Source: Bacteroidaceae bacterium (lineage in GTDB: Bacteria; Bacteroidota; Bacteroidia; Bacteroidales; Bacteroidaceae). From it: 64,000 nucleotides of DNA. Of this stretch, positions 45,406 through 52,148 are shown piece after piece (position 1 is the first letter of the stretch; each line of letters begins with the position of its first letter). The notes under the pieces were generated by a model. The model did not search any database and was not told where the DNA came from. It was given only the letters and a program-made list of their open reading frames with translations. The stretch is taken from assembly GCA_017547165.1 (NCBI GenBank), contig JAFYQK010000025.1, forward strand, positions 355,512 to 419,511. Reading direction: 5' to 3'. A program made the position numbers and the translations under genes.

Positions 45406-45479
45406 GGACTTGTAGCTCAGTTGGTTAGAGCAACAGACTCATAATCTGGAGGTCCCTGGTTCAAGCCCAGGCTGGTCCA
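45406..45479 (+). tRNA. tRNA-Met (CAU), elongator type
   Basis: GGACTTG acceptor, D arm GCTC/GAGC, anticodon loop CTCATAA (anticodon CAT), T arm CCTGG TTCAAGC CCAGG, acceptor 3' CTGGTCC, discriminator A. The stem has a T6:T67 mismatch. Anticodon stem ACAGA/TCTGG lacks the three G:C pairs of initiator tRNA, so this is elongator Met or possibly Ile2 (CAU). CCA is not encoded. A 34-bp terminator follows, then the accessory island. Confidence 0.95.
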
Positions 45480-45490
45480 CCTTAAAAATC

Positions 45491-45585: not shown

Positions 45586-46320
45586 TCAATGATTGGATTT
45601 AGACTTATTGGTATCGCTCATGTTTATTGTTTCTATAAAATCTTTATAAGCGATTGCTTTCGTGTTGTATCCATACATTTTATAAACACAATTAGCTTTA
45701 TTTCTTGTATTTCTATCATTGGTTACAAAATAATCACATGTTGAAGCGAAATATGCATGGTTAGCATCATACAAACGATTCATTGTTGACCCTTTGTTTA
45801 TTTTATCCTGCCAAAACCCTAATGCATTTAGGATGTTAAAGCATGATAGAAAAACCTCTTGTTTACAATTGCATGTCTGCTCCACGAAAAAACATATGAG
45901 GTTACCATGTTTTTCTGCAATTTGTTCTGGTGTATAGTTGTTAATTTCTATTTTCTTTATGCCTAATTTCTCCATTAAAAACTTAGGATTGGAATCCACT
46001 TTCCAATGTACGCTAGCGTCATGTAATTTTTGTGATAGTAAATTGCTAATAGGATTTTCGATAATGCTATAAATATTTGTTGGATTAGCTTTATATAAGG
46101 TTGGTACATTATTATCACTGTTGAAAACACATCGTCCATCAGTTAAATTTTCTATAGTTGTGAATCGTATATTCTTAAGGTTGTCAAGGTTGTTTTTCGC
46201 TTCTTTTAATTCCTCCAAATGCACATAAGAATACACGTATTTAATAGATTTATTAAAAGGAAGAACTTTTAACCGCTTTTCATAATCAATGATGATATTA
46301 TTATCAGGATAAACAAGCAT
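45586..46320 (-). CDS. PIN-like nuclease, probable toxin or defence effector
   Basis: 244 residues. The N-terminus VYPDNNIIIDYEKR has the first acidic residue of PIN proteins, VHLEEL the second Glu, and YDANHAYFASTCDYFVTND the D-x-D pair at the C-terminal side; together a PIN metal site. Most PIN proteins are about 130 residues, so this has a large insert or extra domain in the middle with a Cys pair (CNCKQ). AT-rich and codon use unlike flanking genes. It follows the XRE gene by 74 bp on the same strand. Confidence 0.65.
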   Translation of the reverse strand: MLVYPDNNIIIDYEKRLKVLPFNKSIKYVYSYVHLEELKEAKNNLDNLKNIRFTTIENLTDGRCVFNSDNNVPTLYKANPTNIYSIIENPISNLLSQKLHDASVHWKVDSNPKFLMEKLGIKKIEINNYTPEQIAEKHGNLICFFVEQTCNCKQEVFLSCFNILNALGFWQDKINKGSTMNRLYDANHAYFASTCDYFVTNDRNTRNKANCVYKMYGYNTKAIAYKDFIETINMSDTNKSKSNH

Positions 46321-46394: not shown

Positions 46395-46688
46395 CTACGA
46401 TTTCTTTGTTTTGATTTCTTCTTTAGCAATATTGATGGCAGCTAAATCAATGGTATCTTCGTTTTTAACAGTGTCAAGAACTTTGTCTGCTAACCATATA
46501 GTTAACATGTCATTGACATCCTGATGAAAATATTCGGCCATCTTTATAACCTGTTCTCTTTTTGCTTTACGATCGCCGCGTTCAATTTTACTGAACATTG
46601 GAGTGTCTATTTCTAATAATGCAGCTAATTGGCGTTGTAATACGCCTTGTTCGTCGCGGAGTTCTTTTATTTTTCTTCCAAATATCAT
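46395..46688 (-). CDS. XRE-family HTH regulator
   Basis: 97 residues. Classic HTH_XRE: FGRKIKELRDEQGVLQRQLAALLEIDTPMFSKIERGDRKAK, then a helical C-terminus. The TTG at 46694 also opens the frame, but the ATG at 46688 gives the usual IFGRKIKELR start. Operator-like repeats lie 25-80 bp upstream and the PIN-like gene lies downstream. A repressor of its own unit is likely. Confidence 0.85.
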   Translation of the reverse strand: MIFGRKIKELRDEQGVLQRQLAALLEIDTPMFSKIERGDRKAKREQVIKMAEYFHQDVNDMLTIWLADKVLDTVKNEDTIDLAAINIAKEEIKTKKS

Positions 46689-46713
46689 TGTCAATCATTT
46701 TAGATTCGTATTA

Positions 46714-46768
46714 TTCGCTCGTAAATTCGCTCGTAAATCGCTCGTAATTTTTATGATTTTACGAGCGA
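46714..46768. promoter_or_regulatory. Operator-like repeat cluster upstream of the XRE gene
   Basis: TTCGCTCGTAAA occurs twice in tandem (46714-46725, 46726-46737), followed by TCGCTCGTAA (46738-46747), and then the inverted TTACGAGCGA (46759-46768). Arms 46738-46747 and 46759-46768 form a palindrome with an 11-bp spacer. The last arm lies within the stop region of the 219-residue gene. Likely binding sites for the XRE protein just downstream. Confidence 0.6.
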
Positions 46769-47410
46769 CCAAATGGATTTATTCCCTTGTGTATTATTCT
46801 CTATTTTTTGTTCAGCTCTAAGTTTACGTAAAATGTTATCTACTTTATTTTCTTTCTGCTTATCCGAAAGTTTGTCCGACAACACATTCCATAGTAGATT
46901 TACTATTTCACGCTTAGTAAGTGTACCATGATCTTTGAGAGAATCCAATAAAAATGCTTCACACTTTTTTTCGTCAAGTCCTTTATGTTTTGAATACTCG
47001 ACCTTTTGATCTACCGCATGGACCCAGCCCATTAGCCCGTCAATGCCATCTCCCTTTCCTTCAAAAGACTGTATCACCCGTACCATAAAATCAGGATTCC
47101 ATCCTGCTATGCCGGCAACAAGATGGAACGACCATGCCCATCTCCACACATAATCCGTTTCTGCAAAGACAATTCCACCATCTTTTTTTACTGCAATAAA
47201 AGCCAACGACACAGCAAAATAATAGCCAGCACCATCATGCCCCAAACCTAATGGTTTGATGATCCCCTCATGCTTGGCCCAGTATGATGGTGACTCGCTG
47301 AACTCAAATTCACCAACATCTGCTTTTTCATTCAAGAAACAAACGACCTTGGTAAGCTCCTCTTGAGAATTCGGTATTATATTACGTCCGTTGAACATTA
47401 CTTCTTTCAT
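46751..47410 (-). CDS. Unknown island protein with winged-helix-like C-terminus
   Basis: 219 residues, no membrane segment or signal. The middle (IVFAETDYVWRWAWSFHLV...) shows no familiar motif. The last 70 residues (KREIVNLLWNVLSDKLSDKQ... EQKIENN) resemble the winged helix at the C-terminus of AAA_4/RecG-like regulators. It starts in the stop of the 708-residue membrane protein (ATGA), so it is translated with it. Function unknown; I suggest a nucleic-acid-binding partner of the membrane component. Confidence 0.55.
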   Translation of the reverse strand: MKEVMFNGRNIIPNSQEELTKVVCFLNEKADVGEFEFSESPSYWAKHEGIIKPLGLGHDGAGYYFAVSLAFIAVKKDGGIVFAETDYVWRWAWSFHLVAGIAGWNPDFMVRVIQSFEGKGDGIDGLMGWVHAVDQKVEYSKHKGLDEKKCEAFLLDSLKDHGTLTKREIVNLLWNVLSDKLSDKQKENKVDNILRKLRAEQKIENNTQGNKSIWSLVKS

Positions 47411-49533
47411 TTAGCAACGTCCTCTTCCTCAATGATATTCGTTACTTTATCCAACTCATATTTATTCCCACTATAATCACACATCACTTTCAGCAGACAT
47501 GTATTTCCATAATCCTTTGGAGCATATACTTTTATTGTTTGTACAAGTTGAACATCATAAGGCGGTTTAATATTACCAATATTACTATATAGATGGTTAT
47601 TCGCATCAATCTCTGTATAGCTACCTCCTGTAAAAGCAGTCTCAACAATCTCAATAAAAGGAACTTCAGATCCTCTCAATATCCATATGCTATTGGTAAA
47701 ACCTGCCATCCCAAGGCTCAGAATCTTATGCCCATTATACATACGATTATCACCATCAACTGTTATCTTGTCCCTGAATTCATATAGTTCCAGTGCGTTT
47801 CCTATCTCAACAATAACATAGTCCTCCGGCAATTCTAGCTTATCAATCGCCTCTAGCAGGTCTTTCTGGTTTATACTGTAGCTAATAGAATACGGCATCA
47901 TCGAAAAATCAGCTCGAAGGTATTCATTGAGCATCCTGAAATTCAGCTCATGTACCAAACTGCCCCCAAAGTTACCGAGTTCCTTCTTAGAACCTTTTGT
48001 GATAAATGGCTTTTCAATTCTGTTTGTTACTCTGATGGGCGTAGATGTGGTATTAAACTGTGTCTCATCCAGTACCTCATCGTCCACCTTCATCGGTATT
48101 GGACAATACCTGTTAGCATTATGCACAATCATTTCGTCCCTTATCACCTTCGCTTTATGTTCATCAACCTCGTCGTGCTCGTCTATCTCAATTATCTTCT
48201 GCTTTAGAACACCTATATACTCATCAAGTTTACTCTTGACAACATTAACATCAGGCACATTACTAAGTCCGAACTCAGTTACCAGTCCATTATTATACCA
48301 GCGCTCAACGTTTTTCTTCATCCACTCTACTCTGTTGATCATTCTTTCGTTATTTTCAACAAACTCTTCATCCGCTGCTGGCAAAATAAAAGGGTCGGCA
48401 TAATTAATATTATAATCGTTATAGGTCCATAGCCTGATAATAAGGAGTGCCAAATACTGATATGTATAGCCCGCAATAGCATCATCAATCTTAGCTCCTT
48501 CTTCTAATCCCAAATACTGATATTTCTTGTATAATCCGAAAGGCTTTTCATTTAATTCATCGACGAGCCATACCATATCAAAAATCCTTCCTAGTGTGCC
48601 GGGGATTAGTTCAAACTTTCCTGGCTGTGACTGACTGAAACGCATGATATGCGTCAACCAATCATATCGTTTGAAGTAGATAAGCAAACCGCCTATCATC
48701 ACATGATATCGGTAAAACTCTTTGAGATTGTTGTCGCTCAATGGAGTTCTTCCGTTTAATTTGTAAAATCTGTAGTATTGGTCTGCATAAGTCCAGTAAT
48801 CTCTGAACCAACCTGTATTACCAGCCTTGGCCACCCTATTCACCATTTCCCATATCCTTAGTAAGGTATCCTGCGACAACCCTCCTTCCGAACTATGGTT
48901 ATAAACAGTAGCCAATATACCAATATAGTTGTATCTATCATCGAATAAAGTCGGATCTCCAACACGTTTTGCAACTTTCGACAAGATATCATATAATTCT
49001 GGTGAGTATTCCACAGGCTTATCTTTGGGGGCTTTTTGTTGCTCTTCATAAAATAGAGATGCTATTTCTGAAAGACTATTCACATGCAACATGAAATCAT
49101 CCGTCTTAGCTGCAAACTTTGCCAAATCAAGCAGAGCATCAGCATCCCTCTTCTTCGCATTTTTCTTTAGCATCCTGAGCAAATCCTTAGGCGAATAATA
49201 GTCAATGATTTGTTGTACAAGAAGAACCACGTCTATCATCAATAAGAGTATAAGGAAAACGGCAGCAGACACAACTCCATATTTCCACCATTCGTTATCA
49301 ACGCATTCTAGCACATAAGCTAATATACCAACACAAGCAATGCAGACAATGATAAGAACATTAAATGCCTTAAACTGCCAACGTTTTCGTAAATCAGTAG
49401 ATAAGACAGACGAAGTGTATTTCTGGTCAATCCTCTCAATGGCTTGCAATATGAGCGGATATGCCATACCAAACACTGCAGCAAATACAGTAATGGTCAG
49501 CGTATATGTATGATATAGGAAATCGAATTTCAT
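47407..49533 (-). CDS. Large membrane protein of unknown function, island core
   Basis: 708 residues from ATG 49533 (a TTG further upstream is not used). Three membrane helices within residues 1-110 (TITVFAAVFGMAYPLIL, FNVLIIVCIACVGILAYVL, FLILLLMIDVVLLV), then about 590 soluble residues with no motif I recognise. Overlaps the upstream HTH-membrane gene by 4 bp and the downstream 219-residue gene by 4 bp, so the three form one translationally coupled unit. Low GC and plain codon use set the unit apart from neighbours. Confidence 0.6.
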   Translation of the reverse strand: MKFDFLYHTYTLTITVFAAVFGMAYPLILQAIERIDQKYTSSVLSTDLRKRWQFKAFNVLIIVCIACVGILAYVLECVDNEWWKYGVVSAAVFLILLLMIDVVLLVQQIIDYYSPKDLLRMLKKNAKKRDADALLDLAKFAAKTDDFMLHVNSLSEIASLFYEEQQKAPKDKPVEYSPELYDILSKVAKRVGDPTLFDDRYNYIGILATVYNHSSEGGLSQDTLLRIWEMVNRVAKAGNTGWFRDYWTYADQYYRFYKLNGRTPLSDNNLKEFYRYHVMIGGLLIYFKRYDWLTHIMRFSQSQPGKFELIPGTLGRIFDMVWLVDELNEKPFGLYKKYQYLGLEEGAKIDDAIAGYTYQYLALLIIRLWTYNDYNINYADPFILPAADEEFVENNERMINRVEWMKKNVERWYNNGLVTEFGLSNVPDVNVVKSKLDEYIGVLKQKIIEIDEHDEVDEHKAKVIRDEMIVHNANRYCPIPMKVDDEVLDETQFNTTSTPIRVTNRIEKPFITKGSKKELGNFGGSLVHELNFRMLNEYLRADFSMMPYSISYSINQKDLLEAIDKLELPEDYVIVEIGNALELYEFRDKITVDGDNRMYNGHKILSLGMAGFTNSIWILRGSEVPFIEIVETAFTGGSYTEIDANNHLYSNIGNIKPPYDVQLVQTIKVYAPKDYGNTCLLKVMCDYSGNKYELDKVTNIIEEEDVAK

Positions 49534-50180
49534 TTGATTGTATTTTTGGGGCAACGACAACAACACGTGTCTATTGGCATCGTTGCCTTTGATTCATCAT
49601 TTATTTTCTCTTTTTTCTCCTCTGTCTTTACAACCTTTTGGTTCTTATTCGTTGTATTCCCTGTTCTATAGCTGAATCTTCGATTGTCGTTATTGATTGT
49701 TATATTGGGGGTTATGTTCATCTTAAGTTCATTGTCAATTTTTTCCAAAGTCACGCCCAATTTTCCTATTTCCCCTTTCAATTCGTTATTGATAGTTATC
49801 AGCGCATCCATCTTGACTTCAGTAGGATTCAGGTTCTCATTAATCTCTGATTCTACTACCATCTTATTACATTTTATGAAGGTTGTAAGGCATATAAGTA
49901 AGGGTAAGCATCCTGCCAATAACCAGCCATACGCTTTGAGATTTTGGAAAGCGATGACACATGCTGTTTTAACCTTGGCAAAGATAGATGTCTTTTCTTC
50001 AGGCCTCTCTACATAGCTAATGAAGATGTTATTTACATCATCCTTATTTACCCAGTCTTGCAATAGAACTGGTGGCAGCCCATATTTCATTGCTACTTCT
50101 TCAAGAGACAGGGCGCCTTTCTTATATTCTTCAACGACCTTTTTCTTGAACTCTTCTGTATACTTGGTTTTAGAAGCCAT
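49530..50180 (-). CDS. Transposase-type HTH fused to a membrane segment and coiled coil
   Basis: 216 residues. Residues 1-45 (YTEEFKKKVVEEYKKGALS... YGLPPVLLQDWV) match the helix-turn-helix of IS3-family OrfA. Instead of a leucine zipper, a membrane helix (about residues 83-103, WLLAGCLPLLICLTTFI) and a Glu/Lys/Asn-rich coiled-coil stretch follow, ending with a CCCRC cluster. No transposase catalytic gene is near. Overlaps the 708-residue protein by 4 bp. The HTH would be cytosolic, the rest possibly extracytosolic. Confidence 0.65.
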   Translation of the reverse strand: MASKTKYTEEFKKKVVEEYKKGALSLEEVAMKYGLPPVLLQDWVNKDDVNNIFISYVERPEEKTSIFAKVKTACVIAFQNLKAYGWLLAGCLPLLICLTTFIKCNKMVVESEINENLNPTEVKMDALITINNELKGEIGKLGVTLEKIDNELKMNITPNITINNDNRRFSYRTGNTTNKNQKVVKTEEKKEKINDESKATMPIDTCCCRCPKNTIK

Positions 50181-50198
50181 ATCTTATTTTCCATAAAA

Positions 50199-50285
50199 GT
50201 CTGTAGATCCGTTAATCTGTAATTCCGCAACTCCCATGAAGTGTGTTCCGTACTTCCGTCTATCCGAGATTCTTAATTCCGTTCT
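50199..50285. repeat. TTCCG/ATCCG-rich degenerate repeat
   Basis: The segment contains GATCCGTTAATCTG, AATTCCGCAA, GTTCCGTA, TTCCGTC, ATCCGAGATTCTTAATTCCG spaced 10-20 bp apart. Two imperfect units (TCTGTAGATCCG... AATTCCG and TCTATCCGAG... AATTCCG) are visible. Such text-like repeats are common between genes in Bacteroidales; here it sits between the DUF4143 ATPase and the island unit. Confidence 0.4.
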
Positions 50286-50296
50286 TACCTTCAAAC

Positions 50297-51550
50297 TCAC
50301 ACCTCCATCAGCCATTTCCACACTGGCACCACGGGAATTCCCTCTTCCGTGCCCTCTTCATCGTAAGTAATCAGCAGGCACCTCCAGTCCTCGTGTGCCT
50401 TGGCATACTTAGCCAATGGCGGAACCTCCCTGTTGTAAGTGGTCTCATCCTTGATGCTGTAGGATACCTGAATGGCCAGCTTCTCGTCAGGCACAAGGAA
50501 GTCTATTTCCTTCTCCGCGTTCAGAAAATACACATTCTTCTTGCCAAACTGCCTGCACAGCTCCACCGCCACCATGTTCTCCAGCAACGAAGTCTCCGAA
50601 TTCATCAAGAACAGGTTCAGCAACCCGTTGTCAATAAAGTAGTATTTCTTCTGCATTTCCTTCTCCGTCAGTTTCCCAACCTCATTCTCCATGGGCAGTA
50701 TCAGCCAACTGTCAGAGGCGTAATCCGCATAGTCTATCGTAGTAGGCACACTGATGGGTGATCCCGTTGCCACTATCACGTTCTTCAGTCTGTTATACGA
50801 CAGTGGTTGCTTCACGCTCTCTGCCATCTTCTTGATTAGTATGTTCAGCACCCTGTCATTCTTAATGTTATTTCGGGCGCAGATGTCGCCCAGATAAATC
50901 TTCTGATACAGGCTCGACAGCATAGCCCTTTTATTCTTAAACGACAATATCTCTGGCAGACCACCATAATAGAAGTACTCGTTCAGATGTCGCTTCACTT
51001 CGCTTCTCTGAATCGTGTCATACTCCCAATGCTCCCTAAGCTCCACCTGTTGCGCTGCCAGATATTCCTTGAATGAATATGGGTATGCATCATAGATAAA
51101 GAACCGTCCGCCCAACGTAGTTGCCACCTCCTTGCTCAGCATCTTCGCATTGCTGCCAGTCACATAGACCCTATATTTCGCATCAGTCAACCTTCGCACG
51201 AACTTATCCCAATGCGGAATGTTCTGCACCTCGTCCAGAAACACCACTGGCTTTTTACCATACAGTTCTAGATGGGCCTCCAGCAGACTGTTGAAGTCTT
51301 CCGTCTGGAATTCCGCCAGACGCTCATCCTCAAAGTCCACAAACAGAATCTCGTCCCATCCCTTTCCTGCAGCCTGCAACTGACGCACACGCTGATACAG
51401 CAGGTACGACTTACCCGAATGTCTCACGCCAACTATCACATAGTTGCCGTTCTCTTCGAATTCTATGGGACGGTTCACAATCACCGCCTCATCTACCTCG
51501 CGTTGCTTATTAATCAGGCACCGTTTAATGACATCCTTACTGATACTCAT
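50297..51550 (-). CDS. AAA ATPase of the DUF4143 family
   Basis: 417 residues. Walker A GVRHSGKS near residue 40, Walker B VVFLDEVQN, and the sensor TGSNAKML; the C-terminal half (DFLVPDEKLAIQVSY, EKEIDFL) carries a DUF4143-type domain that resembles a degenerate nuclease fold (D..E..Q). These ATPases are very common in Bacteroides and Prevotella mobile regions; function unknown. TAACTTTG promoter 48 bp upstream. Confidence 0.85.
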   Translation of the reverse strand: MSISKDVIKRCLINKQREVDEAVIVNRPIEFEENGNYVIVGVRHSGKSYLLYQRVRQLQAAGKGWDEILFVDFEDERLAEFQTEDFNSLLEAHLELYGKKPVVFLDEVQNIPHWDKFVRRLTDAKYRVYVTGSNAKMLSKEVATTLGGRFFIYDAYPYSFKEYLAAQQVELREHWEYDTIQRSEVKRHLNEYFYYGGLPEILSFKNKRAMLSSLYQKIYLGDICARNNIKNDRVLNILIKKMAESVKQPLSYNRLKNVIVATGSPISVPTTIDYADYASDSWLILPMENEVGKLTEKEMQKKYYFIDNGLLNLFLMNSETSLLENMVAVELCRQFGKKNVYFLNAEKEIDFLVPDEKLAIQVSYSIKDETTYNREVPPLAKYAKAHEDWRCLLITYDEEGTEEGIPVVPVWKWLMEV

Positions 51551-51644: not shown

Positions 51645-52148
51645 TTGCAATATTTTCACACTGTTTTTATCACAATCCATGAGTTTTTGCCATTCTTGGT
51701 CAGGGTTTACCTATTGTATTGTGTCAAAAGCCATTATAGCATAGCCAAACTTACACACTCCATTCCTTACCTTACAGATGGAGCGGCAGAATTGCTTGAT
51801 ATGATCGGCAAGAACTTCTTGGATTCATTGGAAAGCAAGGGCTTAAATCCCAACAGGATTATTGTTACCTCTGTTTTGAGGACGCAAGAGGATATAAAGA
51901 AACTACAGAGATCTGGCAATCCTAATGCGGTCAGCAACTCAGCCCATTGCTATGCAACAACATTTGACATTACTTATGCTCGCTTTGACAAGATCAAGTA
52001 CAGGAACTTCCTTAGGTATGAATCGGTAGAAAAGGCAATATTGAAGAACGTTTTGGGCGAGGTGCTTCGGGATTTGAGAAAGCAGAATAAATGCTATGTC
52101 AAGTATGAAGTGAAACAGAGATGTTTCCATATAACGACAAGGATGTGA
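51645..52148 (+). pseudogene. Truncated DUF5715-family (M15-like) gene
   Basis: The C-terminal ~120 residues (LTHSIPYLTDGAAELL, VTSVLRTQEDIKKL, NSAHCYATTFDITY, CYVKYEVKQRCFHIT) match DUF5715, an M15-like peptidoglycan peptidase family in Bacteroidales. Its first ~45 residues are AT-rich, lack a signal peptide and show no family match, so the 5' end is lost. The conserved H and D (AHCYATTFDI) survive. Likely non-functional remnant. Confidence 0.6.

Follow-up and report, generated by a model that had tools for sequence, protein, structure and literature searches.

A possible two-gene membrane-embedded defence unit from Bacteroidaceae, with a predicted HK97-like domain in its larger protein

Introduction

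Kiwa (KwaA/KwaB) is reported to form a lattice in the membrane, and its KwaB to bind injected DNA (PMC12904381). With Zorya and SNIPE, which are other membrane-localised defences targeting DNA, it is counted here among the known systems closest to the locus described below. A second point of comparison is given by HK97-fold proteins, that is, phage major capsid proteins and encapsulins. To our knowledge, cellular HK97 proteins form soluble shells, with the exception of a single encapsulin type that extends into the membrane. Such membrane-extended encapsulins are described in PMC8346489 as a Family 3 type from Mesorhizobium carrying C-terminal MFS-like helices. Among the titles listed in a search of mainly open-access, published literature on HK97 folds or encapsulins with membrane or defence, none described such a fusion in defence, which is weak evidence that there is none.

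The DNA analysed (the window) is a stretch of 64,000 nt from a Bacteroidaceae bacterium, and all coordinates are positions in the window, not contig positions. The core of the locus is tentatively read as two genes for a membrane-embedded unit, from a family undescribed so far, that most likely acts against phage and lies in a composite defence island, with an HK97-like domain in the larger protein, p719, that would sense or poison phage. This is put forward as a possible rather than a probable account.

Organization of the locus

The ORF listing gave a run of minus-strand ORFs of 216, 708 and 219 residues, followed by an XRE regulator gene and a putative PIN-type nuclease ORF. The small partner of the core pair, p216 (49530..50180, 216 aa), has an N-terminal HTH and one TM helix. 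The main protein, p719 (47407..49533), has 708 aa counted from the ATG and takes its name from the 719 aa given by the ORF tool from an upstream GTG. Outside the pair are p219 (46751..47410, 219 aa), the XRE gene (46395..46694; HTH_3 E 2.9e-8) and the 244-aa ORF (45586..46320), all on the minus strand. Directly ahead of the XRE gene lie three tandem repeats of 12 bp (46713..46747, minus strand), which could, as a guess, be its operator.

The initial annotation had described a chain of three genes with 4-bp overlaps, with the XRE gene and a further ORF behind them on the same strand, and this was confirmed, the overlaps lying at 49530-49533 (p216/p719) and 47407-47410 (p719/p219). The second may be apparent only, since in sequence comparisons OloA homologues begin at the position matching Met5 of p219; a start there may turn the overlap into an 8-nt gap. 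The low GC content was likewise confirmed, falling to 36-38%. The neighbouring tRNA-Met gene (45406..45481) lies at the edge of the run, 105 bp from the end of the 244-aa ORF, on the plus strand and convergent with it. The 3' end of this tRNA was not found again in the window: one pattern search with 21 bases, allowing 3 mismatches at most, matched the tRNA itself only. Ahead of p216 lies a CGGA-rich leader with six copies at 50181-50296; no meaning was drawn from it because it was not seen in L013 or L095, two of the other loci with the pair.

Recurrence of the gene pair

The p216 + p719 pair was found in four genomes (the window, L012, L013 and L095) with differing neighbours, and this pair, not the wider gene set, is the recurring core. 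Its genes are 2-5 bases apart or overlap in the window, L013 and L095; L012 is the exception in spacing, p216 being frame-shifted there near its end. The window and L012 blocks share 83.6% DNA identity with different flanks, and RibF of the two hosts is only 44% identical, which argues that the block moved between lineages. In L012 only 16 codons of p219 are present before an IS, in which the contig ends.

Recurrence with varied neighbours, the check proposed initially for the whole set, was seen for the pair only: homologues of p219, XRE and PIN were not found beside it in L013 or L095 by tblastn, nor was XRE found near the other p719 loci searched. A five-gene system, in which the wHTH protein, the XRE regulator and the PIN nuclease work jointly with the membrane sensor and the core, would agree with the single strand and tight spacing seen in the window. 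It was rejected as most improbable because none of these three was found next to the pair in L013 or L095; moreover, p219 is a chimera and PIN homologues occur without p719 in L103 and L104. The XRE regulator and the PIN-type ORF are each probably a separate unit. The 244-aa ORF aligns with ORFs in L103 and L104 and had no match in plasmids. Its earlier designation as a PIN-like nuclease was not upheld, the PIN_4 match being sub-threshold (E 0.33) and the AF2 model (pLDDT 45) too poor to judge the fold.

As judged from sequence comparison, p219 is a two-source chimera and not part of the core pair. Residues ~4-130 correspond to an N-terminal fragment of OloA from Olokun, residues 4-129 sharing 54% identity with the beginning of an OloA homologue encoded in L053, and residues ~133-219 to the wHTH with which a SLFN_AlbA_2/HATPase_c_4 protein (Schlafen/AlbA_2 ATPase) ends.

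The HTH at the p216 N-terminus, previously called an IS3-type HTH fused to a membrane helix, is indeed of transposase type (HTH_Tnp_1/IS66 TnpA-type; Pfam HTH_Tnp_1 E 9.5e-7, score 29.4 bits, cut-off 24.1) and is followed by a single predicted hydrophobic TM helix at residues 81-99. The C-terminal part is coiled-coil-like with a Cys-rich end, and no PADLOC family was matched up to E 1. Homologues of p216 precede those of p719 in L012, L013 and L095, and in L098 and L100 p719 relatives have a TM partner without an HTH.

Such a domain would also suit a maintenance or regulatory module of a mobile element, its membrane-anchored, transposase-derived HTH tethering or silencing element DNA; L013 adjoins mobile-looking genes (primase-like, by eye), and in L012 an IS lies next to the pair. 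This explanation is quite improbable, as the partner lacks the HTH in L098 and L100, none was seen in the second branch of the p719 family, and constraint sits on the large protein (dN/dS of p719 against its L012 homologue, 0.078, from which purifying selection is concluded).

The p719 family

No significant match to p719 was obtained in Pfam, NCBIfam, PADLOC or PHROGs, nor any PADLOC family up to E 1. Absent from these four libraries, the family is, by its sequences, undescribed. The initial statement that the genes belong to no known family stands for p719; it fails for p219, both parts of which were recognised (OloA and SLFN_AlbA_2).

The family was counted at 23 loci, including the weak L099 (E 1e-18), and has a second branch. 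No small partner was seen in that branch. The tree excludes L022, L068, L099 and L100, each of which is short, split, weak or cut. L101 and L102 were dropped (E 1.6e-4 and 3.8e-4; not recovered by the family model), as was L096, which matched in the HTH only.

The family is thinly spread in Bacteroidota, with members in 10 other genomes of 393 at the level of the order and 5 others of 395 at that of the phylum. Viral contigs gave no relative with either the single protein or alignment A2; plasmids gave one second-branch member, in Hymenobacter, and no match for L098; phage records gave one match (MT835729).

Predicted structure of p719

Structure prediction with AlphaFold2 (one sequence, pLDDT 78.2), the check proposed initially for the 708-residue protein, gave three N-terminal TM helices and a helical solenoid, with an alpha/beta domain of capsid-like appearance at the C-terminus. 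Of the 50 viral models that Foldseek listed as closest, 26 carry the name of a capsid or head protein (best E 2e-4; four below E 0.001 among the matches listed). Phage capsids or an encapsulin accounted for 16 of 50 listed PDB matches, with probabilities of 0.75-1.00; for the capsid matches the rmsd was about 8-15 A and the target TM-score 0.23-0.44. No PDB match fell under E 0.001, and the first row was an importin solenoid. Structure matches came without residue ranges. The C-terminal domain is described here as a predicted HK97 (phage capsid/encapsulin)-like fold.

The likeness might instead be artefactual, produced in modelling or in matching, with the domain having another alpha/beta fold and the unit being a membrane defence of other mechanism, for example Kiwa-like. 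The PDB E-values are weak and the rmsd high, and no capsid or encapsulin family was matched in sequence (Pfam on p719 and nine members, PHROGs, and profiles of the family and of its C-terminal domain against PDB sequences); the best PDB sequence match of the C-terminal-domain profile was a beta chain of DNA polymerase III (E 0.0049; a second beta chain, 0.26). The HTH partner, membrane helices and defence neighbours would fit a Kiwa-like unit. No fold other than capsid or head recurs by name among the 50 viral matches, however, and KwaA and KwaB are not matched, and the artefact is considered somewhat unlikely.

Genomic neighbourhood and proposed function

At 11 of the 23 family loci, the flanks that were fetched contain recognised defence or candidate-defence genes, with Cas9, AbiE, AbiL/BREX and restriction genes near some; no defence gene was seen at the other 12, five of which were outside the PADLOC scan. 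Weak matches of L097 to RT-Protease_XI (E 1.6e-6) were left out of the count. At 1e-30, PADLOC gave 53 families from 78 neighbours of family loci in the control genomes and none from 87 proteins of 10 arbitrary stretches in 10 of the same genomes; this control is small, with traceable matches at 3/10 loci versus 0/10 and 25 of the 53 families shown. The MTase_II, REase_II, DruM and mad3 rows were attributable to no locus.

L021 is set among housekeeping genes, and L058 lies inside a one-strand run of glycosyltransferase and sugar-nucleotide genes. A role in the cell envelope, such as polysaccharide export or its regulation, with mobility alone bringing the family into islands, would agree with L058, with the membrane location and with L021, L066 and L067, where by eye no defence gene adjoins the family member. 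It is distinctly unlikely, such a setting occurring at one of 23 loci and defence genes near others.

The defence or conflict role suggested at the outset thus gains from the neighbours of several loci, and is itself presumed. The suggested link from sensing at the membrane to cleavage of RNA found no support, the structure model pointing to a capsid-fold-like domain. In the preferred two-gene anti-phage reading, p719 would be held in the inner membrane by its three N-terminal helices, with a cytosolic solenoid ending in the HK97-like domain, and p216 would be a single-pass partner with its DNA-binding HTH on the cytosolic side. The capsid-like domain would co-assemble with phage capsid subunits, or build a capsomer-like array of its own beneath the membrane, and in either way would sense or poison phage morphogenesis or genome entry. 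DNA would be kept by p216 at the same site as p719, and the membrane part could be the effector. A narrower version, in which a capsid-fold domain became a membrane-anchored immune protein, p719 recognising or co-assembling with phage capsid subunits at the inner membrane while the HTH partner holds phage DNA, is unlikely.

If the fold holds, defence islands would contain a membrane-bound HK97-fold protein, and phage sensing or blocking by homotypic contact with capsid subunits would become a testable question. Were the whole account true, it would be a defence class turning the virus's own shell fold against the virus, and might represent a new way to sense or jam viruses. The work also names a family missing from Pfam, NCBIfam, PADLOC and PHROGs.

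Comparison with known systems

Olokun (OloA/OloB) shares only the OloA N-terminus with p219; the rest of OloA is missing, the p219 tail comes from another family, and no OloB adjoins it, none having been found by PADLOC among the six window proteins scanned. The candidate PDC-S01 is represented by the AAA_14/DUF4143 ATPase upstream of p216 (50297..51550, minus strand; AAA_14 E 5.8e-35), which matches the profile at full length (residues 37-416, profile positions 30-408 of 412, E 1.9e-95). A homologue 94% identical lies upstream of the pair in L012, and the link to the pair was seen only in the window and L012.

The likeness to HK97-fold proteins lies in the predicted fold of the p719 C-terminal domain, whereas p719 has no sequence match to them and joins the domain to a solenoid and three TM helices. 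Kiwa is alike in having two genes, for a membrane protein and a DNA-binding partner (DNA binding by p216 is predicted). Kiwa models are included in the PADLOC library, and neither p719 nor p216 matched KwaA or KwaB there. Unlike in Kiwa, the membrane protein here is one of 708 aa with a predicted capsid-like domain, and the putative DNA-binding partner is a small single-pass protein.

Gene organization of the island

The gene run was read on the minus strand and comprised an AAA_14/DUF4143 ATPase gene (AAA; 50297-51550), p216 (49530-50180; an HTH protein with one transmembrane (TM) helix), p719 (47407-49533; a membrane protein of 708 aa from its ATG), p219 (46751-47410), an XRE gene (46395-46694) and a putative PIN ORF (45586-46320), with tRNA-Met on the opposite, plus strand (45406-45481). 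The initial annotation had described same-strand genes of low GC beside this tRNA; the ORFs and tRNA were located at matching window coordinates, and GC fell to 36-38% over the run. On the far side, the profile match of a DUF5715 gene (51645-52148) starts only at position 38 of 171; the gene may therefore lack its beginning, perhaps cut off when the island arrived. AAA and p216 are separated by 116 bp (50181-50296) with six copies of CGGA on the coding strand, packed more densely than anywhere else in the window.

Distribution of the p216/p719 pair

Relatives of p719 were found in 10 other genomes of 393 (order search), 5 of 395 (phylum search, alignment query) and 6 of 231 (family search, two dropped as weak); some genomes turned up in more than one search. 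One close relative, at locus L012, had 82% amino acid identity. The family tree (19 rows) had one branch of six rows (660-708 aa) and another of 13, the full-length members of which were 746-772 aa. In the window, L012, L013 and L095, the large protein follows an HTH-TM partner. The partner in L098 and L100 had a TM helix without an HTH, and a 71-aa membrane ORF occupied its position in L058. Among ORFs of at least 70-80 aa, inspection by eye showed no small partner in the second branch. Homologues of p216 were rare: of 399 genomes in the family, this one included, three gave a match, which in one case covered the HTH alone. In L018 (6365-7096), the gene downstream of the p719-family gene encodes an octameric membrane protein domain (8xMP; E 2.1e-36).

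Composite origin of the gene run

The run is composite. From upstream of AAA to p219 codon 16 it shared 83.6% DNA identity with L012, while RibF of the two hosts had 44% protein identity and the genes flanking the shared block differed. This block is itself a mosaic, since dS between the window and L012 was uneven (p719 1.32, AAA 0.57, p216 0.24). The corresponding dN/dS values were 0.078 for p719, 0.049 for AAA and 0.44 for p216; the L012 p216 had a frame shift near its end, leaving 183 aa.

By its alignments, p219 combines two sources, an OloA start and the tail of an SLFN_AlbA_2/HATPase_c_4 protein. Over residues 4-129 it shared 54% identity with the beginning of a 562-aa L053 ORF that matched PADLOC OloA (E 8.9e-53) and neighboured an OloB match (E 2.7e-112); Olokun is a defence system according to Millman and colleagues 2022, as cited in PMC10121019. 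Residues 133-218 were 52% identical to the tail of an L056 protein with SLFN_AlbA_2 and HATPase_c_4 domains. A second remnant of this OloA start, with 94% DNA identity across 223 bp, occurs in the L012 genome, where it immediately follows an unrelated GmrSD_N/HEC-05 gene. With remnants behind both p719 and a GmrSD_N/HEC-05 gene, OloA starts have become linked to more than one kind of upstream gene, and p219 is not p719-specific. In L080 (7654-9743), the same remnant, a truncated OloA start that nearly matches the p219 one, comes after a GmrSD_N/HEC-05 gene and overlaps it at an ATGA.

XRE is immediately preceded by three tandem repeats of 12 bp (46713-46747), perhaps its operator, and is probably the first gene of a unit of its own. 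PIN ORF homologues occurred in 3 of 172 other genomes of the order, one with four in-frame stops, and p719 was not found in the two such stretches examined, L103 and L104. In both L103 (6157-7602) and L104 (6272-7168) the homologue adjoined restriction genes, of type IIG in L103 and type I-like by eye in L104. The five-gene unit first proposed is unlikely: L013 and L095 showed no p219, XRE or PIN homologue next to the pair, p219 comes from two sources, and the PIN homologues of L103 and L104 lie without p719. The HTH-TM partner and the large protein do recur together.

Genomic neighbours of the p719 family

A recognised defence or candidate-defence gene lay within the fetched stretch at 11 of 23 p719-family loci: PDC-S01 (a PADLOC candidate family) in the window and L015, a 94% identical homologue of the window PDC-S01 ATPase in L012, Cas9 and Cas1 in L095, AbiLi, AbiLii, PDC-S02 and BrxP in L100, putAbiC (Pfam) in L014, AbiEi and AbiEii in L016, PDC-S06 about 6 kb off in L017, PDC-S26 in L020, type I restriction in L068, and type III restriction and AbiLi in L069. 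The p216/p719-type pair of L095 (113-8515) precedes Cas9 and Cas1 by about 1.3 kb. PDC-S01 and PDC-S02, both candidate families, occur commonly in this order. None was recognised in the fetched stretches of L013, L018, L019, L021, L022, L058, L066, L067, L082, L097, L098 and L099, where the neighbours of L019, L022, L058, L082 and L099 fell outside the PADLOC scan and one L098 neighbour was scanned.

The control consisted of 10 arbitrary 14-kb stretches, taken from 10 of these genomes, whose 87 proteins of 150 aa or more included none with a PADLOC match at E 1e-30; the 78 neighbours of family loci in those genomes gave 53 matching PADLOC families, and the 25 of 53 listed could be traced at least to L015, L020 and L068. 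Matches at three or more of 10 family loci against none of 10 control stretches are suggestive only. A pure defence role is disfavoured because L058 stands amid glycosyltransferases and L021 amid housekeeping genes (by eye). L058 (MT835729.1), filed as phage, carries its p719-family member in what resembles a bacterial surface-polysaccharide locus (glycosyltransferases, acyltransferase).

Predicted structure of p719

An AlphaFold2 model of the window p719 (14-row alignment, pLDDT 78.2, pTM 0.59) had helices at 5-39, 52-77 and 81-113, then a helical stretch (115-473) and, from about 490, a domain with strands. Hydropathy gave three TM helices (14-32, 57-75, 87-105), and the positively charged stretch separating the first from the second suggests a cytosolic body. 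Four matches below E 0.001 were obtained against viral models and none against PDB. The 50 viral matches listed comprised 26 capsid or head proteins by name, one structural protein, 20 without informative names, and Gp15, P38.8 and a J-domain protein. The 50 PDB matches listed included 16 to phage capsids or an encapsulin, with rmsd 8-15 A, target TM-score 0.23-0.44 and probability 0.75-1.00; importin-like and other solenoids made up most of the others, one heading the list. The matches came without residue ranges, and the capsid likeness was tentatively assigned to the C-terminal domain because long strands occur in that part alone. Neither the whole-family profile nor that of this domain retrieved a capsid sequence from PDB; they matched a designed circular repeat protein (E 3e-9) and a DNA polymerase III beta chain (E 0.0049), respectively. 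Conservation falls mainly on aromatic, Gly and Pro residues, and no catalytic set stands out.

Comparison with known systems

The best-supported reading makes p216 and p719 a candidate defence unit of two genes at the membrane, from an undescribed family, with a predicted capsid-like domain, in a composite defence island. The capsid-like domain may meet phage capsid subunits or, alternatively, may assemble into an array of its own at the membrane. Among cellular proteins, HK97 is known from encapsulins (PMC8346489); of the titles listed on HK97 or encapsulins with membrane or defence, none described an HK97 fusion to membrane helices in defence islands. Kiwa, as reported in PMC12904381, builds a lattice where DNA is injected, from a membrane protein and its DNA-binding partner. 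Although the p216/p719 pair is not a Kiwa member, having no PADLOC match, it would resemble Kiwa in kind, as a membrane protein with a DNA-binding partner.
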